DNA from: Pseudomonadota bacterium | GTDB lineage: Bacteria; Pseudomonadota; Gammaproteobacteria; Steroidobacterales; Steroidobacteraceae | Length of the DNA: 64,000 bases | Assembly: GCA_025355245.1 (NCBI GenBank) | Contig: JANXZZ010000058.1 | Coordinates: 1-64,000, forward strand | Direction: 5' to 3' | Part shown: positions 14,133 to 32,849 of the stretch, piece after piece | How the letters are laid out: every line of letters begins with the position of its first letter | Numbering within the stretch: the first letter of the stretch is position 1 | The notes under the pieces: generated by a model | The model's input: only the letters and a program-made list of their open reading frames with translations | Told to the model about the DNA's origin: nothing | Databases searched by the model: none | Program-made: the position numbers and the translations under genes

Positions 14133-15536
14133 TCAGTGCGCGCCCGCCAGGTCGTGCATGAGCAGGTACCAGTAGGGCAGGGTCTTGTAGAAGGCATCGA
14201 CCGACACGCGCTCGTTGAGCCCGTGCGCGAAGTCATCCGAGCCCTTCATGAATAGCCCGGAAGCGCCGTAGGTCGGGATGCCACCGCGTCGGAATACGGA
14301 GCCGTCGGTCGCGTAGGCCGCCATCGTTCCCGAAACCGTTGCGCCCGGGTAGGTCGCGTTGACCGCGTGCGTGACCGCCTTCATCACGTCCGCGCGCATG
14401 GGCGAGGCGTCTGAGACGAGCGGCTCGTGCGCCAGCGCGATCTCGACCTTGGCGCCGGCGAGCTGCTGCAGCGTGCCCTTGACGTCCATTGCGGTCGTGC
14501 CCGGAAAAATCCGGCAGTTCACCGTCGCCGTTGCGGACTGCGGCAACGCGTTCTCGGCGTGGCCTCCCTGCAGCATCGTCGCAATGCATGTCGTGCGCAC
14601 TAGGCCGACGAATTCGGGGTCCTTGGAAATCTCCTCGGCGGCGGTGGCATCACCTGGACTGGCCGCGAACTTCGTAAGTGCCGCGCCGAGCGCCCCCGGC
14701 CGAACGCCGCCCGCGGCCTTGAAATCCTGCAGCGTCCAGTCGTTCCACTTCACGGGGAACTGATAGCCGCGAATCGCCTCGAGCGCATCGGCGAGCTCGT
14801 AGATCGCATTGTCCTTGCGCGGCCGCGAGCTGTGGCCGCCGGGGTTGCGCACGGTGAGCACGTAAGTCGCAGAGCTCTTCTCGGCGCCCTGCACCACGTA
14901 CGAGAGCGCGCGACCGTCGCTCTCCGCCAGCGTGCCGCCACCGCCGTCGCCGTTTAGGGCGAACTCGGCGTCCACCAGGTCGCGGTGGTGCTCGACGAGG
15001 TCGATGGCGGTGTACTGCTCGGTTTCCTCATCGCCGCTGAAGGCGATGATGAGGTCGCGCGTCGGCGCGAACTTCTCGGCCTTGAGCCTGAGGAAGGTCG
15101 CGGTCAGCGAGGCGACCTCGCTCTTGATGTCGGACGCGCCGCGACCGAAAAAGTAGCCGTTCTCCTCGACCAGGGTGAACGGATCGCGCTTCCAGTCCTC
15201 GCGTTTGGCGGTCACGACGTCCATGTGCGCGAGGAAAGCGACGGGTTTGCCGCCCTTGCCGCTGCCGCGGTAGCGCACGACCAGCGAAGCGCTTTCGCCG
15301 AGCGGCAGGACGTGCACGTCCGCCGCCGGGAAGCCGCCGTCGCGGAAACGGCCGGCGAGGTACTCGGCCGCCTTCGGCACCTGCCCCTTGCCGATCGAGG
15401 TCTCGATGCTGACAAGCTTCGCAAAGATCTCCCGCGCGTCGCGCCTTTCGGCTTCGGGCGCCGTCGCTGGCGCGGCCGCATGCGCCGCCGGCAGTGACAC
15501 GAGAACACCCAGCACCAGCGAACCGATCTTCAGCAT
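14133..15536 (-). CDS. M20 family metallopeptidase, exported
   Basis: Signal peptide; VAFLAHMDVVTAKREDW...GRGASDIKSEVAS...FSGDEETEQYTA. Confidence 0.88.
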   Translation of the reverse strand: MLKIGSLVLGVLVSLPAAHAAAPATAPEAERRDAREIFAKLVSIETSIGKGQVPKAAEYLAGRFRDGGFPAADVHVLPLGESASLVVRYRGSGKGGKPVAFLAHMDVVTAKREDWKRDPFTLVEENGYFFGRGASDIKSEVASLTATFLRLKAEKFAPTRDLIIAFSGDEETEQYTAIDLVEHHRDLVDAEFALNGDGGGGTLAESDGRALSYVVQGAEKSSATYVLTVRNPGGHSSRPRKDNAIYELADALEAIRGYQFPVKWNDWTLQDFKAAGGVRPGALGAALTKFAASPGDATAAEEISKDPEFVGLVRTTCIATMLQGGHAENALPQSATATVNCRIFPGTTAMDVKGTLQQLAGAKVEIALAHEPLVSDASPMRADVMKAVTHAVNATYPGATVSGTMAAYATDGSVFRRGGIPTYGASGLFMKGSDDFAHGLNERVSVDAFYKTLPYWYLLMHDLAGAH

Positions 15537-23745: not shown

Positions 23746-24933
23746 CTACTTCTTGGTGAGCGTCGCGGCGACGCGCCGGTAGGCCTCGCGAAATGGAATC
23801 CCCTCGCTGACGACGAGCGCGTTGGCGCGCTCGGCCGCGTGGATGGCGGGGTCGAGGCGAATGTTCTCCGGCCGGAAGCGCACCCCGTCGAGCGCCGGCG
23901 GCAGGATATCGAGCGTCTCGGCCGCGAGGTCAATGCCACGGAACAGCGGCGCCTTCAGTAGCTGCAGGTCCCGGTGGTAGCCGCTCGGCAGCTTCGCAAC
24001 GATGCCGAGCGCTTCCGCGAGCGTCGCGTGCGCGCTCGCGGTGCGGCCGCGAATCAGCTCGAAGACGTCGGGATTGCGCTTCTGCGGCATGATCGAGGAG
24101 CCGGTCGTGAACGCCTCCGGAAGTTCGACGAACGCGAATTCCTGCGTATAGAAGAGCAGCAGGTCGGATGCGAGGCGCCCCAGGTCGGTCATCAGCAGCG
24201 CGATCTCGAACAGCAGCGTCGCCTCGGCCTTGCCGCGCGACAGCTGCACGGCCGTGACCGGCTCGTGGCTCATGGCAAAACCTAGCCGGCGCGTCGTCTC
24301 GGCGCGCTCGAGCGGAACGCCGGGCGTGCCGTAGCCGGCCGCCGAGCCGAGCGGGTTCTTGTCGATCCTGCGCCGCGCGAGCCCGAGTCCCTCGGCGTCG
24401 TCGCGGATCTCCGCCGCGAAGCCTCCCGCCCAGAGCGTGACGCTGCTCGGCATGGCCTGTTGCATGTGTGTGTAGCCGGGCAGGGCGACAGCTGCGTGGC
24501 GTGCGCCGAGTGCATCGAGTGCGTTCGCAACGCTGGCCGCGCCGGCTGCGAGCGCCTCGACCGCATCGCGCAGGTACAGGCGCAGCGCCGCGAGCACCTG
24601 GTCGTTGCGCGAACGGCCGAGATGAATGCGGCCGCCCGCGGCACCGACGGCGGCCGTGAGGCGCCCCTCGAGGGCCGTCTGCCCGTCCTCGTCGGCGAGC
24701 GCGACGTGCCACTCGCCGCGCGCGTGCGCGGCACCGATCGCGGCGAGCGCTGCCGCCAGCGCGGCGAGATCCGTCGCCGACAGCAGTCCCGCGGCATGCA
24801 AGCCCTCGGCGTGCGCGATCGAGGCACGCACGTCGTAGCCGACCAGCCGGTTGTCGAGCGCGTGGTCTTCGCCCGCCGTGTAGGCGAGCACGCGCGCATC
24901 GAGCGGTGCGCCCTTGTCCCAGAGCCGCGTCAC
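23746..24933 (-). CDS. argH: Argininosuccinate lyase
   Basis: GRSRNDQVLAALRLYLRD...GYTHMQQAMPSS...TTGSSIMPQKRNPDVFELIRG; GTG start overlaps argB stop. Confidence 0.95.
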   Translation of the reverse strand: MTRLWDKGAPLDARVLAYTAGEDHALDNRLVGYDVRASIAHAEGLHAAGLLSATDLAALAAALAAIGAAHARGEWHVALADEDGQTALEGRLTAAVGAAGGRIHLGRSRNDQVLAALRLYLRDAVEALAAGAASVANALDALGARHAAVALPGYTHMQQAMPSSVTLWAGGFAAEIRDDAEGLGLARRRIDKNPLGSAAGYGTPGVPLERAETTRRLGFAMSHEPVTAVQLSRGKAEATLLFEIALLMTDLGRLASDLLLFYTQEFAFVELPEAFTTGSSIMPQKRNPDVFELIRGRTASAHATLAEALGIVAKLPSGYHRDLQLLKAPLFRGIDLAAETLDILPPALDGVRFRPENIRLDPAIHAAERANALVVSEGIPFREAYRRVAATLTKK

Positions 24934-25868
24934 GACGCTGCACCGCCCGGCTGCTGCTCGGCCGCGGACAGCGCCTTGACGTCGGCGACGATGAGCGTGC
25001 CGAGGCCCTCGTTCGTGAATACCTCCGCAAGCAGCGCATCGGTCGACTTGAACGAGATCACGTGCACGCGGTGCACGCCGCCGCGAATCGCCGCCTCGAT
25101 CGCATTGGCCTTCGGCATCATGCCGTCGGCGAAGCTGCCGCCCGCCTCGAGGCGTTTGAGGCCGTTGAGATCGGTATAGGAGACGAGTGTCGAGGGATCC
25201 TCGAGGTGCTCGAAGATCCCGGCCGAACCTGTGCACAGGAGCAGCTTCTCGGCGCCGAGCGCGGCGCCGATCCGCGCCGCGACGGTATCGGCGTTGATGT
25301 TGAGCACGGTACCCTGCGCATCGCAGCTCAGGGGGCTCACCACCGGCATGTAGCCCGCATTCAAGAGCTGGTTCAGCACGTCAGGATCAATGCCTTCGAT
25401 GTCGCCAACCTGCCCGTAGTCGACCTGGCTGCCGTCCTGCGCGCGCACGGGCGGGCGGCGGTGCGCACGGACGAGGCCGCCGTCGACCCCGGAAATCCCG
25501 ACCGCCTTGATGCCGAGCTCGCGGCAGATGCCAAGCAGGCGCGTGTTGAGGAGCCCGTTCAGCACCATGACCGTCACCTCGACCGTCCTGGGGTCGGTCA
25601 CGCGCCGGCCGTCGACCATCTTGGGCTCCATGCCGAGGGAGCGCTGCATCTCATCAAGCTGCGGACCGCCGCCGTGGACGAGCACGACGCGGATGCCCAC
25701 CTGGTGAAGGATTGCGACCTGTTCCATCAGCGAGCGGGTCGCCTCGGGGCTGCCGAACAGCGCACCACCGACTTTCACGATGAAGACCTTGCCCTTGTAC
25801 ATGCGGATGTACGGCGCGGCGTTGCGCATGGCGCGAATCGCTACGGCTTGTTCGGGGCGGTAGCTCAT
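24930..25868 (-). CDS. argB: Acetylglutamate kinase
   Basis: KVFIVKVGGALFGSPEATRSLMEQVAILHQVGIRVVLVHGGGPQLDEMQRSLGMEPKMVDGRRVTD; 312 aa, no visible C-terminal GNAT domain. Confidence 0.93.
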   Translation of the reverse strand: MSYRPEQAVAIRAMRNAAPYIRMYKGKVFIVKVGGALFGSPEATRSLMEQVAILHQVGIRVVLVHGGGPQLDEMQRSLGMEPKMVDGRRVTDPRTVEVTVMVLNGLLNTRLLGICRELGIKAVGISGVDGGLVRAHRRPPVRAQDGSQVDYGQVGDIEGIDPDVLNQLLNAGYMPVVSPLSCDAQGTVLNINADTVAARIGAALGAEKLLLCTGSAGIFEHLEDPSTLVSYTDLNGLKRLEAGGSFADGMMPKANAIEAAIRGGVHRVHVISFKSTDALLAEVFTNEGLGTLIVADVKALSAAEQQPGGAAS

Positions 25869-25931: not shown

Positions 25932-26939
25932 TCAGGCGAGCAGGCGGTGCAGAACGGCGATCTGTACGAGCAGCCGGTTGTGCGCCTCGCGCAACACCAC
26001 GCTCCTCGCGCCGTCGAGGACCTCGTCGGCGACCGCGACGTTGCGCCGCACCGGAAGGCAGTGCATCAGCCGGCAGCCGGGCGCCGCGCGCCCGAACCAG
26101 GACTCGCGCACCTGCCAGTCGGCGAGCGCGACCCGTTGCTCGGCGTCGCTGCTGGCATCGCCGTAGTGGCTGGTCGAGCCCCACTCCTTGGCATACACGA
26201 CGTGGGCGCCGGCCAGCGCCTCTGCGCGATCAGCGGTCTCCGTGACCGAACCGCCGGATGCCGCCGCGGCCTGGCGCGCGCGTTCCATCACGACTGGCGG
26301 CAGCGCGTAGCCCTCGGGCCTCAGTACCACCACCTCGTGCCCGCGCAGCGCCGCCATGTGCACCGCCGCGGCGGGAACGGCGAGCGGCAGCGCGCGCGGA
26401 TGGTTCACCCAGGAGAGCACGAACTTCGCGCGCTCGGGCACTCCGATGTCCTCGAGCGTCTTCCAGTCGGCGAGTGCCTGGCAGGGATGGTTGATAGCGG
26501 ATTCCAGGTTGATGAGCGGCTTGTCGATCAGCGCCGCCATGGCCTTGAAGTTCCCGTCGGCCAGGTCCGCCGCCAGGTCCTTGCCGTCCGCGAAGGCACG
26601 GATGCCGAGCGCGTCGCAGTAGGACGCGAGCACCGGCAGGCCCTCGCGGATGTGTTCGGCCGCGACACCGTCCATCGCGACTCCCATCCGCGTCTCGAGC
26701 GCCCACGTCCCCTGCCCGGGCGTGATGACGAACGAGGTTCCGCCGAGGCGGGCCATGCCGGCCTGGAACGAGGCGAGCGTGCGCAGCGAGGGGTTCAGGA
26801 ACACGAGGCCAAGGATGCGACCGGCGAGTGCGCGGGGCTCGGGGCTCTTTTCGAGCCGGCGGGCGAGCGCCAGCAGTTCGAGCACGCCGTCGCGGCCGAC
26901 GTCGGCGAGGTCGAGGAAGCGAGCGAGGCGCGCGCTCAC
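25932..26939 (-). CDS. N-acyl-ornithine carbamoyltransferase (acetyl- or succinyl-ornithine type)
   Basis: LVFLNPSLRTLASFQAGMARLGG...MDGVAAEHIREG...HCLPVRRNVAVADEVLDG, features of the AOTCase/SOTCase branch rather than classical ArgF. Confidence 0.82.
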   Translation of the reverse strand: MSARLARFLDLADVGRDGVLELLALARRLEKSPEPRALAGRILGLVFLNPSLRTLASFQAGMARLGGTSFVITPGQGTWALETRMGVAMDGVAAEHIREGLPVLASYCDALGIRAFADGKDLAADLADGNFKAMAALIDKPLINLESAINHPCQALADWKTLEDIGVPERAKFVLSWVNHPRALPLAVPAAAVHMAALRGHEVVVLRPEGYALPPVVMERARQAAAASGGSVTETADRAEALAGAHVVYAKEWGSTSHYGDASSDAEQRVALADWQVRESWFGRAAPGCRLMHCLPVRRNVAVADEVLDGARSVVLREAHNRLLVQIAVLHRLLA

Positions 26940-28108
26940 GAGCCGAGTCCGGCGAGCGTGTCGGCAAGCTGCGCGACGTGTTCCGCGGCGAGCGTGAACG
27001 GCGGCAGCAGGCGCACGATGTTGGGATCGGCGGCGGTGCCGGCGAAGATGCCCCGCGCGAGCAGTTCCTTCTGCACCTCCCTGGCGGGCCGTGAGGTGCG
27101 AAGTCCGAGCAGCAGCCCGGCGCCCTGGATCCCGGTCACCGGTCCCGTGATGCAGGTCGCCCGGATCAGCGCCGACATCCGTTCGACGTTCGCGAGCAGG
27201 CCCTCGCTCTCAATGATGTCGATGACCGTCTCGACGACGGCGCAGGCGAGCGGGCCGCCTCCGAACGTCGTGCCCAGGTCCTCAATCCTGAGGCGCGAGG
27301 CGACCGCGGGCGAGAGCAGCATCGCCGACACGGGGAATCCCGCACCGAGCGCCTTCGCCGTGGTCAGGATGTCGGGCGTGACGCGCGCGCGGTTGGCTGC
27401 GAAGGGGAATCCGGTGCGTCCGACTCCGCACTGCACCTCATCAAAGATGAGGAGCGAGCCGAGTTCGCTGCAGCGCCGCCGCAGTGCGGCTAGCACCTCG
27501 GTCGGCACCTCGTACGCGCCGGCGAGGCCCTGCACAGGCTCGACGATCACGCAGGCGGTTTCCTCGCTGACCGCCGCCGCCGCGGCGACGGGGTCGCTGC
27601 GCGATGCGAAACTCACGTCGAAGGGCGCCCGCGGAAAGCCGTACCACTTCTCGCGTGCACCAAAGGTCACGGCCCCGGCCGCGGCCGTCCGCCCGTGCCA
27701 GCCGTGCTCGAGCGCGACCGCCTCGCGCCGCCCGGTCAGCTTGAACGCGAGCCTGAGCGCATTCTCGTTGGCCTCGGCGCCCGAGTTCACGAAGAAGACG
27801 CTGTCGAGGCCGAGTCCCGCGAAACGCACCAGGCGTGCCGCGGCGCGCTCGCGCACCGCCATCGGAATCGCGTTCGTCTGGAACAGTACCTCGCGCGCCT
27901 GCTTCTCGAGCGCCGCGACCCAGCGCGGATGGCCGTAGCCGAGCGCGGCGACCGCGTGGCCGCCGTAGTAGTCGAGCACGCGCCGGCCATCCCGGGTCTC
28001 GAGCCACACGCCGTCCGCGCGCACCACCTCGAAGGGGTACTGCGCGAACACCCGCGCGAGATGGTCGGTGGCGGGGGCGATAGGCGTCTGGATGCTCGCT
28101 GAAGACAT
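26936..28108 (-). CDS. argD: Acetylornithine aminotransferase-type class III aminotransferase
   Basis: VLDYYGGHAVAALGYGHPRWV...FVNSGAEANENALRLAFKLTGR...LLIFDEVQCGVGRTG. Confidence 0.92.
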   Translation of the reverse strand: MSSASIQTPIAPATDHLARVFAQYPFEVVRADGVWLETRDGRRVLDYYGGHAVAALGYGHPRWVAALEKQAREVLFQTNAIPMAVRERAAARLVRFAGLGLDSVFFVNSGAEANENALRLAFKLTGRREAVALEHGWHGRTAAAGAVTFGAREKWYGFPRAPFDVSFASRSDPVAAAAAVSEETACVIVEPVQGLAGAYEVPTEVLAALRRRCSELGSLLIFDEVQCGVGRTGFPFAANRARVTPDILTTAKALGAGFPVSAMLLSPAVASRLRIEDLGTTFGGGPLACAVVETVIDIIESEGLLANVERMSALIRATCITGPVTGIQGAGLLLGLRTSRPAREVQKELLARGIFAGTAADPNIVRLLPPFTLAAEHVAQLADTLAGLGS

Positions 28109-28140
28109 GCGCTTGCTCGTTTCGGGAGGCCCGGCGGCCG

Positions 28141-29208
28141 TCAGGTCCAGCCGGGCGCGGGTGCGAGGAGACCGGTCGTCTCGGGCCAGCCGAACATCCG
28201 GTTCGCCCACTGCACCGCCCCGCCGGCCGCGCCCTTGGTGAGGTTGTCGAGCACGCTCATGACCGCCACCGTGCGGCCGTTCGTGCTAACGGCGAGCTCG
28301 GCGAAGTTGCTGGTGAGGACGTCCTTGAGCCGCGGCGCGCTCTCGAGCACGCGCACGAACGGCTGCCCTGCGTAGAAGTCCCGCAGCGCTGCGGTGAAGT
28401 CAGCGGCGCTGATCGACTTGAGCAGCCGCGCCTGCGTGGTCGCGTGGATGCCGCGTGCAAACGGACCGGAGTGCGGCACGAAGTTGAGATCGGCGGTTCG
28501 ACCCGTGATCGCGCGGGCGACGCCGACGACTTCCGGCGCATGGCGGTGGGCGAGGGCGCCGTACGAATAGAGATCGCTGTGCCGCCTCGGGTGGTGGGTG
28601 CCGTCCGTCGGCGCGCGGCCGGAGCCGGTGCTGCCGGTGACGGCCGAGACGAAGAACTCGGGTTCGACGAGACTCAGCTGCAGGAGCGGCACGATCGCGA
28701 GCAGCATCGCGGTCGAGAAGCAGCCGGGGTGCGCGACGTGCGGGGTCGCGAGGGTCGCGAGGTGCTCGGGCACGGCGCAGCTGAACTCGGCGACTCGCGC
28801 CGGCGCGCCGTGGGCGTGACCATAGACCGTCTGGTAGGCGAGTGGATCGGCGAAGCGGTAGTCGGCGGAGATGTCGACGACGCGCGGGCGCGTGCCCGCG
28901 GCGGCCGCGGCGGCGAGCAGGCGGTCAATGAGAGCGGCCGAGACGCCGTGCGGGCCGGCAGCGAGGACGGCGCTCACCGGCAGTGAGGCGATGCGGCGTT
29001 CCGCGTCCGCGAGGCTGCCGAACACCGCCTCGGGATATGCGGTCGCGAGGTGTGGGAACGCCGCGCCGATGCGCTCGCCGGGCTTCGAATCGGAGATCGC
29101 CGCGGCGAGCTCGAGATGGGGATGCAGCGCGATCAGGCGCAGCAGTTCCCCGGCGACGTAGCCGCTGCCGCCGATGACGAGCGTCGGAATGCGCTCCACG
29201 CCGATCAC
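28141..29208 (-). CDS. argC: N-acetyl-gamma-glutamyl-phosphate reductase
   Basis: TLVIGGSGYVAGELLRLIALHPHLEL...VAHPGCFSTAMLLAIVPLL...VTGSTGSGRAPTDGTHHPRRH; GTG start in GTGA overlap. Confidence 0.92.
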   Translation of the reverse strand: MIGVERIPTLVIGGSGYVAGELLRLIALHPHLELAAAISDSKPGERIGAAFPHLATAYPEAVFGSLADAERRIASLPVSAVLAAGPHGVSAALIDRLLAAAAAAGTRPRVVDISADYRFADPLAYQTVYGHAHGAPARVAEFSCAVPEHLATLATPHVAHPGCFSTAMLLAIVPLLQLSLVEPEFFVSAVTGSTGSGRAPTDGTHHPRRHSDLYSYGALAHRHAPEVVGVARAITGRTADLNFVPHSGPFARGIHATTQARLLKSISAADFTAALRDFYAGQPFVRVLESAPRLKDVLTSNFAELAVSTNGRTVAVMSVLDNLTKGAAGGAVQWANRMFGWPETTGLLAPAPGWT

Positions 29209-30284
29209 TCCGTGGTCGGCTTGATCGGGAATCGCTCGGCGAGGCCCGCCGCAACGATGACGCGGTCGCCGAGCGCCGCGCCGCTCGTGATCGCGTTGAA
29301 CGCGGACACGCCCATCTGGTCGGCGATGATGTCGACGCCGACCTGGTTGTCGGTGGCGGGTCCGGTAACCACCGCAGGCTCGATGCCGAACTTCTCGCGC
29401 AGGATCTTGACGCCGCCCCAGGCGGCGACGGGGTCGTTCGCCGAGAGCACGAGCGCGGTGATGGCGCTGCGAATGTCGTGGGACGCGAGGATCGCCTCGA
29501 CGCCGTAGGTGCCGAGCAGGCCATCGCCGAGCTCGAAAACGATGACGTCCGGCGCGCCCTGCGACATCTCGCTCAGCATGGTGCGCGTCAGCGCCGGACC
29601 CACCCGCGCCGTCGTCGTGCCGACCCCGAAGTCGGTGAAGATCATGCTCTTGCGGGCGCCGGCATCTTCCATCGCGAGCACGTCGCGCCTGAGCGAGACG
29701 CCGGTTGCCTTGAAGGCGTGGACCGCGATGCCGCGGTGGCGCATGCGCGCGATAATCGCGCACGCGGCAGCGGTCTTGCCGGCCTCCATGCAGGTGCCGG
29801 CGAGCGCGACGACCGGCACGTCACGTGTCTCGAGCTTGGCGGCCTGGTCGAGCGGCTTGTAGCCGATGCGCGCCGGGACGCCGATGCGCTCGCCGAGGAA
29901 CGGGAACTGCAGGACCACGCCGAGCACGCGACAATCGAAGGGGCGGCCCTTGTCCACATTCACCGAGTCGCAGATCCCGAGGACGCCGCCGATGTTGAGC
30001 ATCTGGATCACGTCGCCCGGCTTCACCGCTTCGGGCACGTGGCCGGAATAGCCGAACAGCGCCTTGCGATGGCCGAGCGCGCCGACGACGATGTCGCCCT
30101 TCGCGACTTTGGCCATGCGTCCGCTCGTGAGCTCGAGCGTGTTGTAGGTGCTCTTGTTGGTAAGCACTTCGACAACGAGGATTACGCCCTCCTCGCAGGG
30201 AATGTCCTCGGAAATGCGCAGTTCGTGGCCGAGGCCACGTGCCTGCGTAATGGAGGCGACCTTGTCGACGACGACGGATTTCAC
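29205..30284 (-). CDS. Unassigned P-loop protein encoded between argG and argC (protein X; BioD/DUF1611-like nucleotide-binding motif)
   Basis: 359 aa; VVALAGTCMEAGKTAAACAIIARMRHRG has the spacing of the dethiobiotin-synthetase-type P-loop (GT-x4-GKT); N-terminal beta-rich domain; GTGA overlaps with both neighbours. Confidence 0.6.
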   Translation of the reverse strand: MKSVVVDKVASITQARGLGHELRISEDIPCEEGVILVVEVLTNKSTYNTLELTSGRMAKVAKGDIVVGALGHRKALFGYSGHVPEAVKPGDVIQMLNIGGVLGICDSVNVDKGRPFDCRVLGVVLQFPFLGERIGVPARIGYKPLDQAAKLETRDVPVVALAGTCMEAGKTAAACAIIARMRHRGIAVHAFKATGVSLRRDVLAMEDAGARKSMIFTDFGVGTTTARVGPALTRTMLSEMSQGAPDVIVFELGDGLLGTYGVEAILASHDIRSAITALVLSANDPVAAWGGVKILREKFGIEPAVVTGPATDNQVGVDIIADQMGVSAFNAITSGAALGDRVIVAAGLAERFPIKPTTE

Positions 30285-31516
30285 GACTGGCTGTCCTTGG
30301 CCTCGGCGCCGGCACGGGTATAGAACATGCCCGTCAACGCGAGCATCTTGGAGTAACCGAGCGCATCCGCCGGCGTCCACTCGCCGGCCGCTTCGCCGTA
30401 TACGCCGCGCGAAGCCGCCATCAGTGACCAGCGCGAGGTGACCCCCTCGACGAATGCGCCGCCGGTGCGGAACAGAAGCGCCACCTCGCCGCTGACCCGC
30501 TCCTGGGAGGAGCGCAGCAGCGCCTCGATGTCCCGGCACACGGGATCGAGGTGGTGGCCCTCGTGCACGAGGTCGCCGTAGGGAGCGGCGACGAGTTCCT
30601 TTATGCGTGCCTGCCGGCCGGTAAGCACGAGCTTTTCGAGCTCGCGATGCGCCGTCAGCAGCACCTCCGCCGCCGGCGCCTCAAATGCGACGCGGCCCTT
30701 CGTGCCGATGACCGTGTCGCCGAGATGAATGCCGCGGCCGATGCCGAAGGGCGCGGCCAGGCGCTCGAGCGCCTCGATGAGCGCTGGTGGCTCGAGTGCC
30801 GTGCCGTCGAGCGCGACCGGCACGCCCTTCGCGAAGGCGAGCGTGTGACGCTCGGCAGCGCGAAGCGCAAGGAAGGCATCGCGCGTCAGCACCCAGGCCG
30901 CGTCCGGAATGCTGCCGGCCGAGGTGAGCGTCTCCTTGCCGCCGATCGTGACTCCCCACAGGCCGCGGTTGACCGAATAGGCGGCACCGAACGGCGGCAC
31001 GGGCAGCCTGCGTTCCTCGAGGAACTTGAGCTGCTCGGAGCGCTTGAAGGCGTGGTCGCGCACCGGCGCGAGGATCTCGAGGCCGGGCGCGAGCGTGCGC
31101 AGCGCGACCTCGAAGCGGACCTGGTCGTTGCCGGCAGCCGTGCAGCCGTGCGCCACCGACGGCGCGCCGAGCTTCTGCGCCATCTCGGCGATCATCTGTG
31201 CCTGCAGGACCCGTTCCGCACCGACGCAGAACGGGTACATCTGCCCGCGGCGCGCATTGGCCATCAACAGGTACTTGAGTACCCGCTCGAAGTACTCCGC
31301 CTTGGCGGGCACGAGGTAGTGGGCATCGGCACCGAGTTCGCGCGCGCGCGCCGCGAGCGTCCGCGCCGCCTGCTCATCGATGCCGCCGGTATCGACGGTG
31401 ACGCTGATGACCGGGCGCCCATAGGTCTCCTTCAGCCACGGCACGCAGAACGACGTGTCGAGACCGCCGGAAAAAGCTAGGAGGATGGGCCGGTCGCCCG
31501 TCGGGATCGTGGTCAT
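30281..31516 (-). CDS. argG: Argininosuccinate synthase
   Basis: ILLAFSGGLDTSFCVPWLKETYGRPVISVTVDTGG...HGCTAAGNDQVRFE...NRGLWGVTIGGKETL. Confidence 0.93.
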   Translation of the reverse strand: MTTIPTGDRPILLAFSGGLDTSFCVPWLKETYGRPVISVTVDTGGIDEQAARTLAARARELGADAHYLVPAKAEYFERVLKYLLMANARRGQMYPFCVGAERVLQAQMIAEMAQKLGAPSVAHGCTAAGNDQVRFEVALRTLAPGLEILAPVRDHAFKRSEQLKFLEERRLPVPPFGAAYSVNRGLWGVTIGGKETLTSAGSIPDAAWVLTRDAFLALRAAERHTLAFAKGVPVALDGTALEPPALIEALERLAAPFGIGRGIHLGDTVIGTKGRVAFEAPAAEVLLTAHRELEKLVLTGRQARIKELVAAPYGDLVHEGHHLDPVCRDIEALLRSSQERVSGEVALLFRTGGAFVEGVTSRWSLMAASRGVYGEAAGEWTPADALGYSKMLALTGMFYTRAGAEAKDSQS

Positions 31517-31525
31517 GGGCGCCCT

Positions 31526-32002
31526 TCAGCGACTTTCGAGGGAACGGAAGCGGTCGAGAACGGTGTGCTGGGCACGCGCGGTGGCGGTCGCGATGAAGAT
31601 CGTATCGTCCCCCGACAACGTGCCGACCACCTCGGGCCACCGCGCGCGGTCGATGGCGAGCGCGACGCTCGGCGCCGAACCCACGGGCGTGCGCACGACC
31701 GTGAGGTTGGGCCCTGCCGGTGTCACCGCGCGGACGAACGCGGCGACGACCGAGAGATCCGCCACCGGCGCGCCCGCGTCCTCGGCGAGCACGTAGCGAT
31801 CCCCGACCTTGGCGACGCCGAGGTCGCGGAGGTCGCGGCTGACGCTCGACTGCGTGACCGGGTAGCCCTCGCGCTTGAGGAGCCGCACCAGCTCCGCCTG
31901 CCGGCCGATCTCGCCGCCACGGATGATCCGCTTGAGCGCATCGCGCCGGTCGAGGCCGACGCGCGTCGCGGCCGAGCCGTGATGGTGGTGATCGTATTGC
32001 AT
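31526..32002 (-). CDS. argR: Arginine repressor
   Basis: [54 protein letters not shown] winged-helix ArgR N-terminus; start codon chosen at 32002, alternatives upstream. Confidence 0.9.
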
Positions 32003-32034
32003 AAAGGTGCGGACATTGTGCATAAATATGCATA
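31996..32034. promoter_or_regulatory. Tandem ARG-box-like operator upstream of the argR-led operon
   Basis: tgTGCATaaatATGCAta (32017-32034, perfect inverted repeat TGCATA-AA-TATGCA) plus degenerate TTGCATAAAGGTGC beginning 21 bp away, the 18+3 bp spacing of classical ARG box pairs. Confidence 0.72.
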
Positions 32035-32081
32035 GACGGTCAAGCCCCATCGTCTGCGCCCGGCACGGCCGGTCGCGGCCA

Positions 32082-32849
32082 TCAGCGCCAGGGAGCCTCA
32101 AGCGCGAAGCGCCGCGACCCGGTAGGGCTGCCGTCGGCGGCGTAGCTGCGCTCGAGGACCGCGCCGGCGCCGTCGGCATCGAGGACGAGCGCCGTGCTCG
32201 AGCGCGTTCCGTAGTCGGCGCCCACGATGAACGCCGACGACAGGCGCCGTTCGAGTTCGAGGCCGACGCCGGTATCGGGCAACTCCGCGTCCGCGGCCCG
32301 CGTGCGGTCGGCGATCACCCCGAGCAGCTGTTCGGGCGCGAGCGCCGGCGCGGCGACGAGGGCGCCGAGCCTGGCGCGGCTCTGCACCAGCTTCGGCCAG
32401 GGCGTGTCGAGGGTCGCGTTGCTGAGGCCGTAGATTCCGGGGAGCAGCAGGCGCGGCGGCGCGGAGTCGCGATTGCAGTAGTAGCCGAGTGAATGTTCAT
32501 CGCCGAGCAGGAGGCTGAATCCCGCGTAGCGCGCGGCTTCCGGGACGAGCGCGCCAAGAAAGGCGGCGGGCGAAAGCTCGCCCGCGAGAAAGCGCGGAAT
32601 CAACGTGCCACGCGAGGGCGCCGCCGCCGGCCCCTCGCCACCCCGGAAGTTGGTGATCACGCCGAAGCGGCGGCGCCCATCAAGTGCGAGCCAGGTGCCG
32701 CCGGCGGTCAGGTCGCGGCCGGCGAGCAGCGGCGGCGCACCCGCCCACTCCATCGGCGCGGTCGGCCGCTGGTGAAATTCATCGCGGTTACCGACGAGCG
32801 CAAGCCGTCGTGCGGGTGACTGGTGCCAGGAGAAGACGAGGAGGCACAC
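32082..32849 (-). CDS. NRDE (TANGO2-like) family protein
   Basis: [36 protein letters not shown]-like N-terminus; [14 protein letters not shown]. Confidence 0.9.

Follow-up and report, generated by a model that had tools for sequence, protein, structure and literature searches.

The arginine operon in the 64,000-nucleotide stretch of DNA analyzed here (the window) contains a gene of 359 codons between argG and argC, called X in the following, whose product is a strong candidate for a first-step enzyme of arginine biosynthesis that is neither of the GNAT nor of the ArgJ type, probably an N-succinyl-L-glutamate synthase. We estimate the probability that X acylates glutamate, and thereby carries out step 1 of the pathway, at roughly 60%; given that it does so, succinyl is clearly favored over acetyl as the acyl group. 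The genes of the operon follow one another on the minus strand in the order argR-argG-X-argC-argD-argF'-argB-argH:

31526..32179 (ORF as listed), minus strand: argR, arginine repressor, head of the operon (Pfam PF01316 and PF02863)
30281..31516, minus strand: argG, argininosuccinate synthase (TIGR00032, above cut-off)
29205..30284, minus strand: X, predicted L-glutamate N-succinyl(acyl)transferase or synthetase, a 359-aa P-loop protein (from operon, orthologs and fold)
28141..29208, minus strand: argC, N-acyl-gamma-glutamyl-phosphate reductase of the TIGR01850 type (above cut-off)
26936..28120 (start approximate), minus strand: argD, acylornithine aminotransferase (Pfam Aminotran_3, above cut-off)
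25932..26939, minus strand: argF', knotted acylornithine carbamoyltransferase with succinylornithine-type residues (models and residue comparison)
24930..25868, minus strand: argB, acylglutamate kinase of 312 aa (TIGR00761, above cut-off; in Pfam AA_kinase only)
23746..25080 (start approximate), minus strand: argH, argininosuccinate lyase (TIGR00838, above cut-off; Pfam)

The true start of argR is probably located further downstream than in the listed ORF, the domains starting at residue 77, and the best NCBIfam match of argD, TIGR00707, scores below the cut-off of that model. The operon covers the known steps leading from acylglutamate to arginine with the exception of the deacylation. With the Pfam and NCBIfam models no GNAT, ArgJ or M20 domain was detected in the eight operon proteins; according to Pfam the 312-aa ArgB does not carry a NAT synthase domain and ArgH does not carry a GNAT domain, which rules out a fused synthase of the ArgH(A) type. 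The domain models thus agree with the first-pass annotation, which had seen no argA, argJ, argE or GNAT domain in the operon and had noted that ArgB has only 312 aa. It had missed the succinylornithine-type carbamoyltransferase and the sister operon type that shows what X replaces. About 8 kb downstream of argH there is a 467-aa M20 peptidase (14136-15536) with an apparent signal peptide; we judge it to be secreted and unlikely to serve as ArgE.

The reading frame of X comprises 359 codons plus the stop codon and overlaps both of its neighbors by a GTGA sequence, at 30281-30284 with the stop codon of argG and at 29205-29208 with the start codon of argC, so that the coordinates, the length and the overlaps given in the first-pass annotation are all correct. 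Mechanically the open reading frame extends further upstream to 30539; the assigned start is backed by the orthologs, which have the same N-terminus M/V-K/R-x-x-x-x-DK. Orthologs in other species are 57-94% identical and retain the position between argG and argC. The gene order argG-X-argC is kept in 20 loci (L002-L021) and also in L022-L026. Conservation across species together with the synteny shows that X is not a chance ORF. The complete eight-gene order was found in 63 of the 80 named loci, most of the others being interrupted by contig ends, and this operon type is present throughout the Steroidobacteraceae and related families. When the operon proteins were compared over the 63 loci in which argG to argB is nearly whole, X had the highest mean identity (79.1%), followed by ArgG (75.5%), ArgH (74.4%), ArgF' (73.5%), ArgB (69.5%), ArgD (67.8%), ArgC (64.8%) and ArgR (57.6%); this top rank in conservation fits what is expected for an enzyme. 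The named carriers belong to the Steroidobacteraceae and to allied gammaproteobacteria; cultured species among them are Povalibacter uvarum, Peristeroidobacter agariperforans and Steroidobacter gossypii. A Steroidobacteraceae-type X operon is also found in a metagenome bin titled Klebsiella pneumoniae (L106, CAMCBU010000002.1), the name of this record being very likely wrong.

We compared the distribution of X and of step-1 enzymes in a sample of 120 genomes of the order, counting orthologs of X at an E-value of at most 2e-100. The searches for synthases were confined to ArgA, ArgJ and NAT, as distinct from the single-domain GNAT synthases (S-NAGS, C-NAGS and the Cabys_1732 type). X is present in 102 genomes and a NAT domain (PF04768) fused to ArgB in 12, and no genome has both. 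Neither ArgJ (PF01960) nor ArgA (TIGR01890, full-length with kinase-like and GNAT part) exceeded the cut-off in any of the 120 genomes; the strong matches to the ArgA model end at about model position 280-294, in the kinase part, and are therefore ArgB. In sister genomes of the order the Xanthomonas-type ArgB::NAT fills the same gap as X would: it carries a GNAT-related domain on ArgB, belongs to an acetyl pathway with ArgE in the operon, and never occurs together with X. Since X is located in the arginine operon and all step-1 enzymes covered by the searches are missing, X probably performs step 1, and the earlier proposal that X supplies the missing acyl-glutamate step gains support from the exclusion of NAT and from the lack of ArgA and ArgJ matches over cut-off.

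The mutual exclusion of X and NAT has a Fisher p of about 2e-12 when the 120 related genomes are treated as independent, which they are not because of their shared ancestry. The exclusion is in part due to this ancestry and to the existence of two alternative whole operons: as the operon types are inherited as blocks, the exclusion of NAT is correlated with the loss of ArgE, and both are correlated with the succinyl-type ArgF'. An exchange of X and NAT has taken place at least once inside a family, as can be seen from genome G123, which belongs to a family (f7) whose members mostly have X, lacks X and has the operon argF'-argG-argE-argB::NAT-argC. Six of the 120 genomes have neither X nor NAT. 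Five of these are without a match to an ArgB-like kinase or a close match to ArgF'; in the sixth, G055, an acetyl-type argF' adjoins argG, and we therefore assume that argB::NAT was probably lost in the draft.

The carbamoyltransferase gives an indication of the acyl group. The acetyl and succinyl types of this enzyme differ at positions 92, 185 and 302 (Xanthomonas numbering), with E, N and K in the former and A/S/P/V/Q, P and V/I/E in the latter (PMC4581275), and the distinction at position 92 has also been reported in PMC7311316. ArgF' of the window has A94 where the Xanthomonas enzyme has E92, and it has P for N185 and A for K302. Among the ArgF' sequences of X operons the three positions are A, P, A in 70 of 71 and A, P, V in the remaining one, whereas those of NAT operons read E, N, K (8 of 9) or E, N, Q (1 of 9). 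At position 302 the acetyl-type lysine thus occurs in none of the 71 X-operon sequences, although the alanine found in 70 of them lies outside the listed V/I/E. The best PDB score of ArgF', a tied one, is to chain 3l02, the Xanthomonas enzyme version with A at position 92. Being succinyl-type at two of three positions and free of the acetyl-type lysine, ArgF' suggests that the intermediates of the pathway accompanying X are most likely succinylated, as far as this can be read from the residues. A further carbamoyltransferase (L184, G055:C244:617-1594) is 48% identical to ArgF' of the window, has Q, S, P, A and S at Xanthomonas positions 92, 144, 185, 252 and 302 and adjoins a PLP decarboxylase-like gene.

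The structure of X was predicted with AlphaFold and compared by Foldseek and by profile searches, which allowed the following parts to be assigned:

29835..30284, minus strand: N-terminal beta-rich domain of X, about residues 1-150 (AlphaFold, pLDDT 94.2)
29235..29819, minus strand: C-terminal SIMIBI P-loop domain of X, about residues 156-350 (AlphaFold, Foldseek, profiles)
29772..29798, minus strand: Walker A motif GTCMEAGKT of X, residues 163-171 (alignment to E. coli BioD)
29709-29711, minus strand: K192 of X, with the spacing of K37 of dethiobiotin synthetase

The AlphaFold model calculated from 35 sequences (pLDDT 94.2, pTM 0.91) consists of a beta-rich N-terminal domain, as the first-pass annotation had predicted, and a P-loop domain. 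In an earlier model based on 16 close sequences the N-terminal domain was poor (pLDDT 77), and the inclusion of paralogs raised the value to 94. No substitution occurs in X or its paralogs at K170, T171, K192, D218 or E251. The sequence AGTCMEAGKT (residues 162-171) has the spacing of the dethiobiotin synthetase motif, and residues 161-192 align with E. coli BioD without a gap, 34% of the 32 residues being identical; both proteins have a GTxxxxGKT Walker A motif, and the lysine that follows it lies at the same distance. Foldseek lists dethiobiotin synthetase first (E 5e-6), followed by other SIMIBI NTPases, while the highest TM-score (TMq 0.41-0.42) is reached by the DUF1611 protein 2obn, whose r.m.s.d. 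of 4.2-4.5 Å is among the lowest. The TM-scores are low since essentially the P-loop domain alone is matched, and for the N-terminal domain Foldseek gave no fold match beyond the P-loop domain (TMq at most about 0.42). A search of viral protein structures gave nothing at E <= 0.001. At the sequence level no NCBIfam model matches X, and neither X by itself nor the profile of its orthologs retrieved anything useful from the PDB; a wider profile including the paralogs found the dethiobiotin synthetases (E 0.012). BioD is therefore the best match of X both by Foldseek E-value and by PDB profile, and the resemblance to dethiobiotin synthetase and DUF1611 P-loops noted at first reading is borne out. 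X differs from BioD in that it has no match to the bioD model (TIGR00347) and no biotin operon, an additional N-terminal domain and, as predicted, other substrates. A Pfam match to Hexapep_2 ('succinyl-transferase') at residues 330-348 was dismissed as a chance hit (E 0.07, in one of 16 members).

DgcN, which belongs to DUF1611, is a D-glutamate N-acetyltransferase and thus acts on the amino group of glutamate. DUF1611/DgcN proteins (NF041892, PF07755; PDB 2obn, 2g0t, 7xrj) have, like X, a P-loop fold with the motif GTxCxxGK. X is not, however, a member of this family: Pfam DUF1611 scores it at 16.5 bits with a cut-off of 25, there is no match to NF041892, the profile alignment spans residues 152-345 only, and hhalign relates its sequence to DgcN only weakly (P about 0.003, probability 10-11%). 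The DUF1611 N-terminal domain is missing by Pfam, and the beta-rich N-terminal domain of the AlphaFold model differs from that of DgcN. Moreover, X is located in an arginine operon, unlike DUF1611/DgcN. Its GKT is canonical, whereas DgcN has GKK or GKM, and the residue corresponding to K192 is mostly arginine in DgcN. The kinship between X and DgcN is at the level of the fold. The DUF1611 match in the source genome itself (L001) is a separate fragment and was ruled out as being X. The link between DUF1611 and DgcN drawn in the first-pass annotation is correct: of the DUF1611 proteins encoded in these genomes that match the NCBIfam model 'N-acetyltransferase DgcN', one exceeds its cut-off of 480 and three fall just short of it, and dgcN is part of a D-glutamate pathway (PMC12363236).

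The difference between GKT in X and GKK/GKM in the DUF1611 proteins hints, from sequence, that X possibly uses ATP. In dethiobiotin synthetase the amine attacks a mixed anhydride with phosphate. We propose that X would attach an acyl group, most likely succinyl, to the alpha-amino group of L-glutamate and that the resulting N-succinyl-L-glutamate would then be processed by three further operon enzymes, ArgB, ArgC and ArgD, and by the succinylornithine-type ArgF'. The ligand of the C-terminal P-loop domain would be a CoA ester if X works like DgcN, or Mg-ATP if it works like dethiobiotin synthetase, so that the acyl donor might be succinyl-CoA or succinate plus ATP; glutamate and acyl group would be held by the family-specific beta-rich N-terminal domain. 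What we infer is the reaction, the identity of the acyl group and of its donor, and the roles of the domains. Functions as deacylase, ligase or regulator are less likely. As the SIMIBI fold is common to X, HypB, FtsY/Ffh and MobB, X could be a nucleotide-dependent regulator, a chaperone or a channeling subunit of the arginine enzymes. We consider this unlikely, since 102 genomes would then lack an explanation for step 1, neither the exclusion of NAT nor the highest conservation among the operon proteins is expected of an accessory factor, and with ArgR a regulator is already present at the head of the operon.

To look for X outside the order we searched 398 genomes over the phylum. Besides the source genome one of them, G353, has a true ortholog (73% identical), in the arrangement argR-X-argC-argB and thus among the genes for steps 2 and 3. 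As its carbamoyltransferase G353 has what looks like an ordinary OTCase, encoded next to argG and argH, and a domain search detected no ArgJ. This arrangement ties X to the early pathway and not to the citrulline stage.

The deacylation has to be considered separately. By gene content ArgE is absent from the X operons, and it is present in the NAT operon that was inspected gene by gene (L119). The two X genomes consisting of a single contig, G041 (L127) and G077 (L125), have one strong M20 match each; that of G077 is DapE, over the desuccinylase cut-off, and the top match in four other genomes is likewise DapE. This suggests that DapE may double as acylcitrulline desuccinylase and serve both pathways, including the deacylation in arginine synthesis. 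The more detailed reading in which a SIMIBI P-loop family with a new N-terminal domain is the N-succinyl-L-glutamate synthase of a large gammaproteobacterial clade, possibly an ATP-dependent ligase, and DapE the final desuccinylase is put forward tentatively, at somewhat less than even odds.

With ArgE missing, X could instead fill the deacylation gap, as N-succinylcitrulline deacylase or a part of it, the acylglutamate being made by an unlinked single-domain GNAT protein; small GNAT synthases are known elsewhere (PMC3827942), and the 25-30% identical relatives of X adjoin an M20 peptidase. This is distinctly unlikely, however, as X has no hydrolase motif, its P-loop domain is of the ATP- or CoA-binding kind, and in G353 its neighbors are argC and argB, the genes for steps 2 and 3, and not late genes. 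Slightly less likely still is a transacylase analogous to ArgJ that moves succinyl from N-succinylcitrulline (or N-succinylornithine) to glutamate and so combines step 1 with deacylation: with a single new gene both gaps would be closed, since X operons lack the NAT domain as well as the ArgE of the sister operon, and G041 and G077 have their single strong M20 match each (DapE in G077), but a P-loop of the ATP-binding type would be superfluous for transacylation, DapE as a desuccinylase could itself be the deacylase, and G353 combines X with an ordinary OTCase.

In a review of 2015 the glutamate-succinylating gene was still not identified (PMC4490483); in the open-access literature the only later proposal we found is the BT3761 type of the Bacteroidetes (PMC7311316). 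The succinylated arginine pathway (SOTCase) of the Bacteroidetes resembles the X operon in having a knotted carbamoyltransferase with succinyl-type residues; its arginine locus also contains a dedicated synthase outside the classical types, as X would be (PMC7311316, PMC5317091). This synthase, of the BT3761/Cabys_1732 type, has been reported from Bacteroidetes and Caldithrix only. We found no description of X in the open-access literature. X is a concrete and testable candidate for glutamate succinylation with a fold different from the BT3761 type. If the assignment is true, X closes the arginine pathway in 102 of the 120 sampled genomes of the order, automated annotation would cease to label these organisms as gapped or auxotrophic, X would be the first enzyme with a SIMIBI P-loop fold for step 1 of arginine biosynthesis, and the dethiobiotin synthetase/DUF1611 fold would have been used more than once for the acylation of glutamate.

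Two groups of more distant relatives of X were observed. The second of them (L116:10118-11230, L120:3668-4885 and L177-L179) has no arginine genes nearby, an N-terminal domain with an 'NRYAPDQFEA'-like motif and MobB-like P-loop scores. The first, 25-30% identical to X ('GTSMSAGKTT...EAGASPLEPYNG'), is found in L111, L113, L114, L117, L118, L182 and L183, and in most of these loci its direct neighbors are a CPG2/ArgE-like M20 peptidase and a protein resembling flavin reductases; this trio is conserved and is also present in G337, outside the order.
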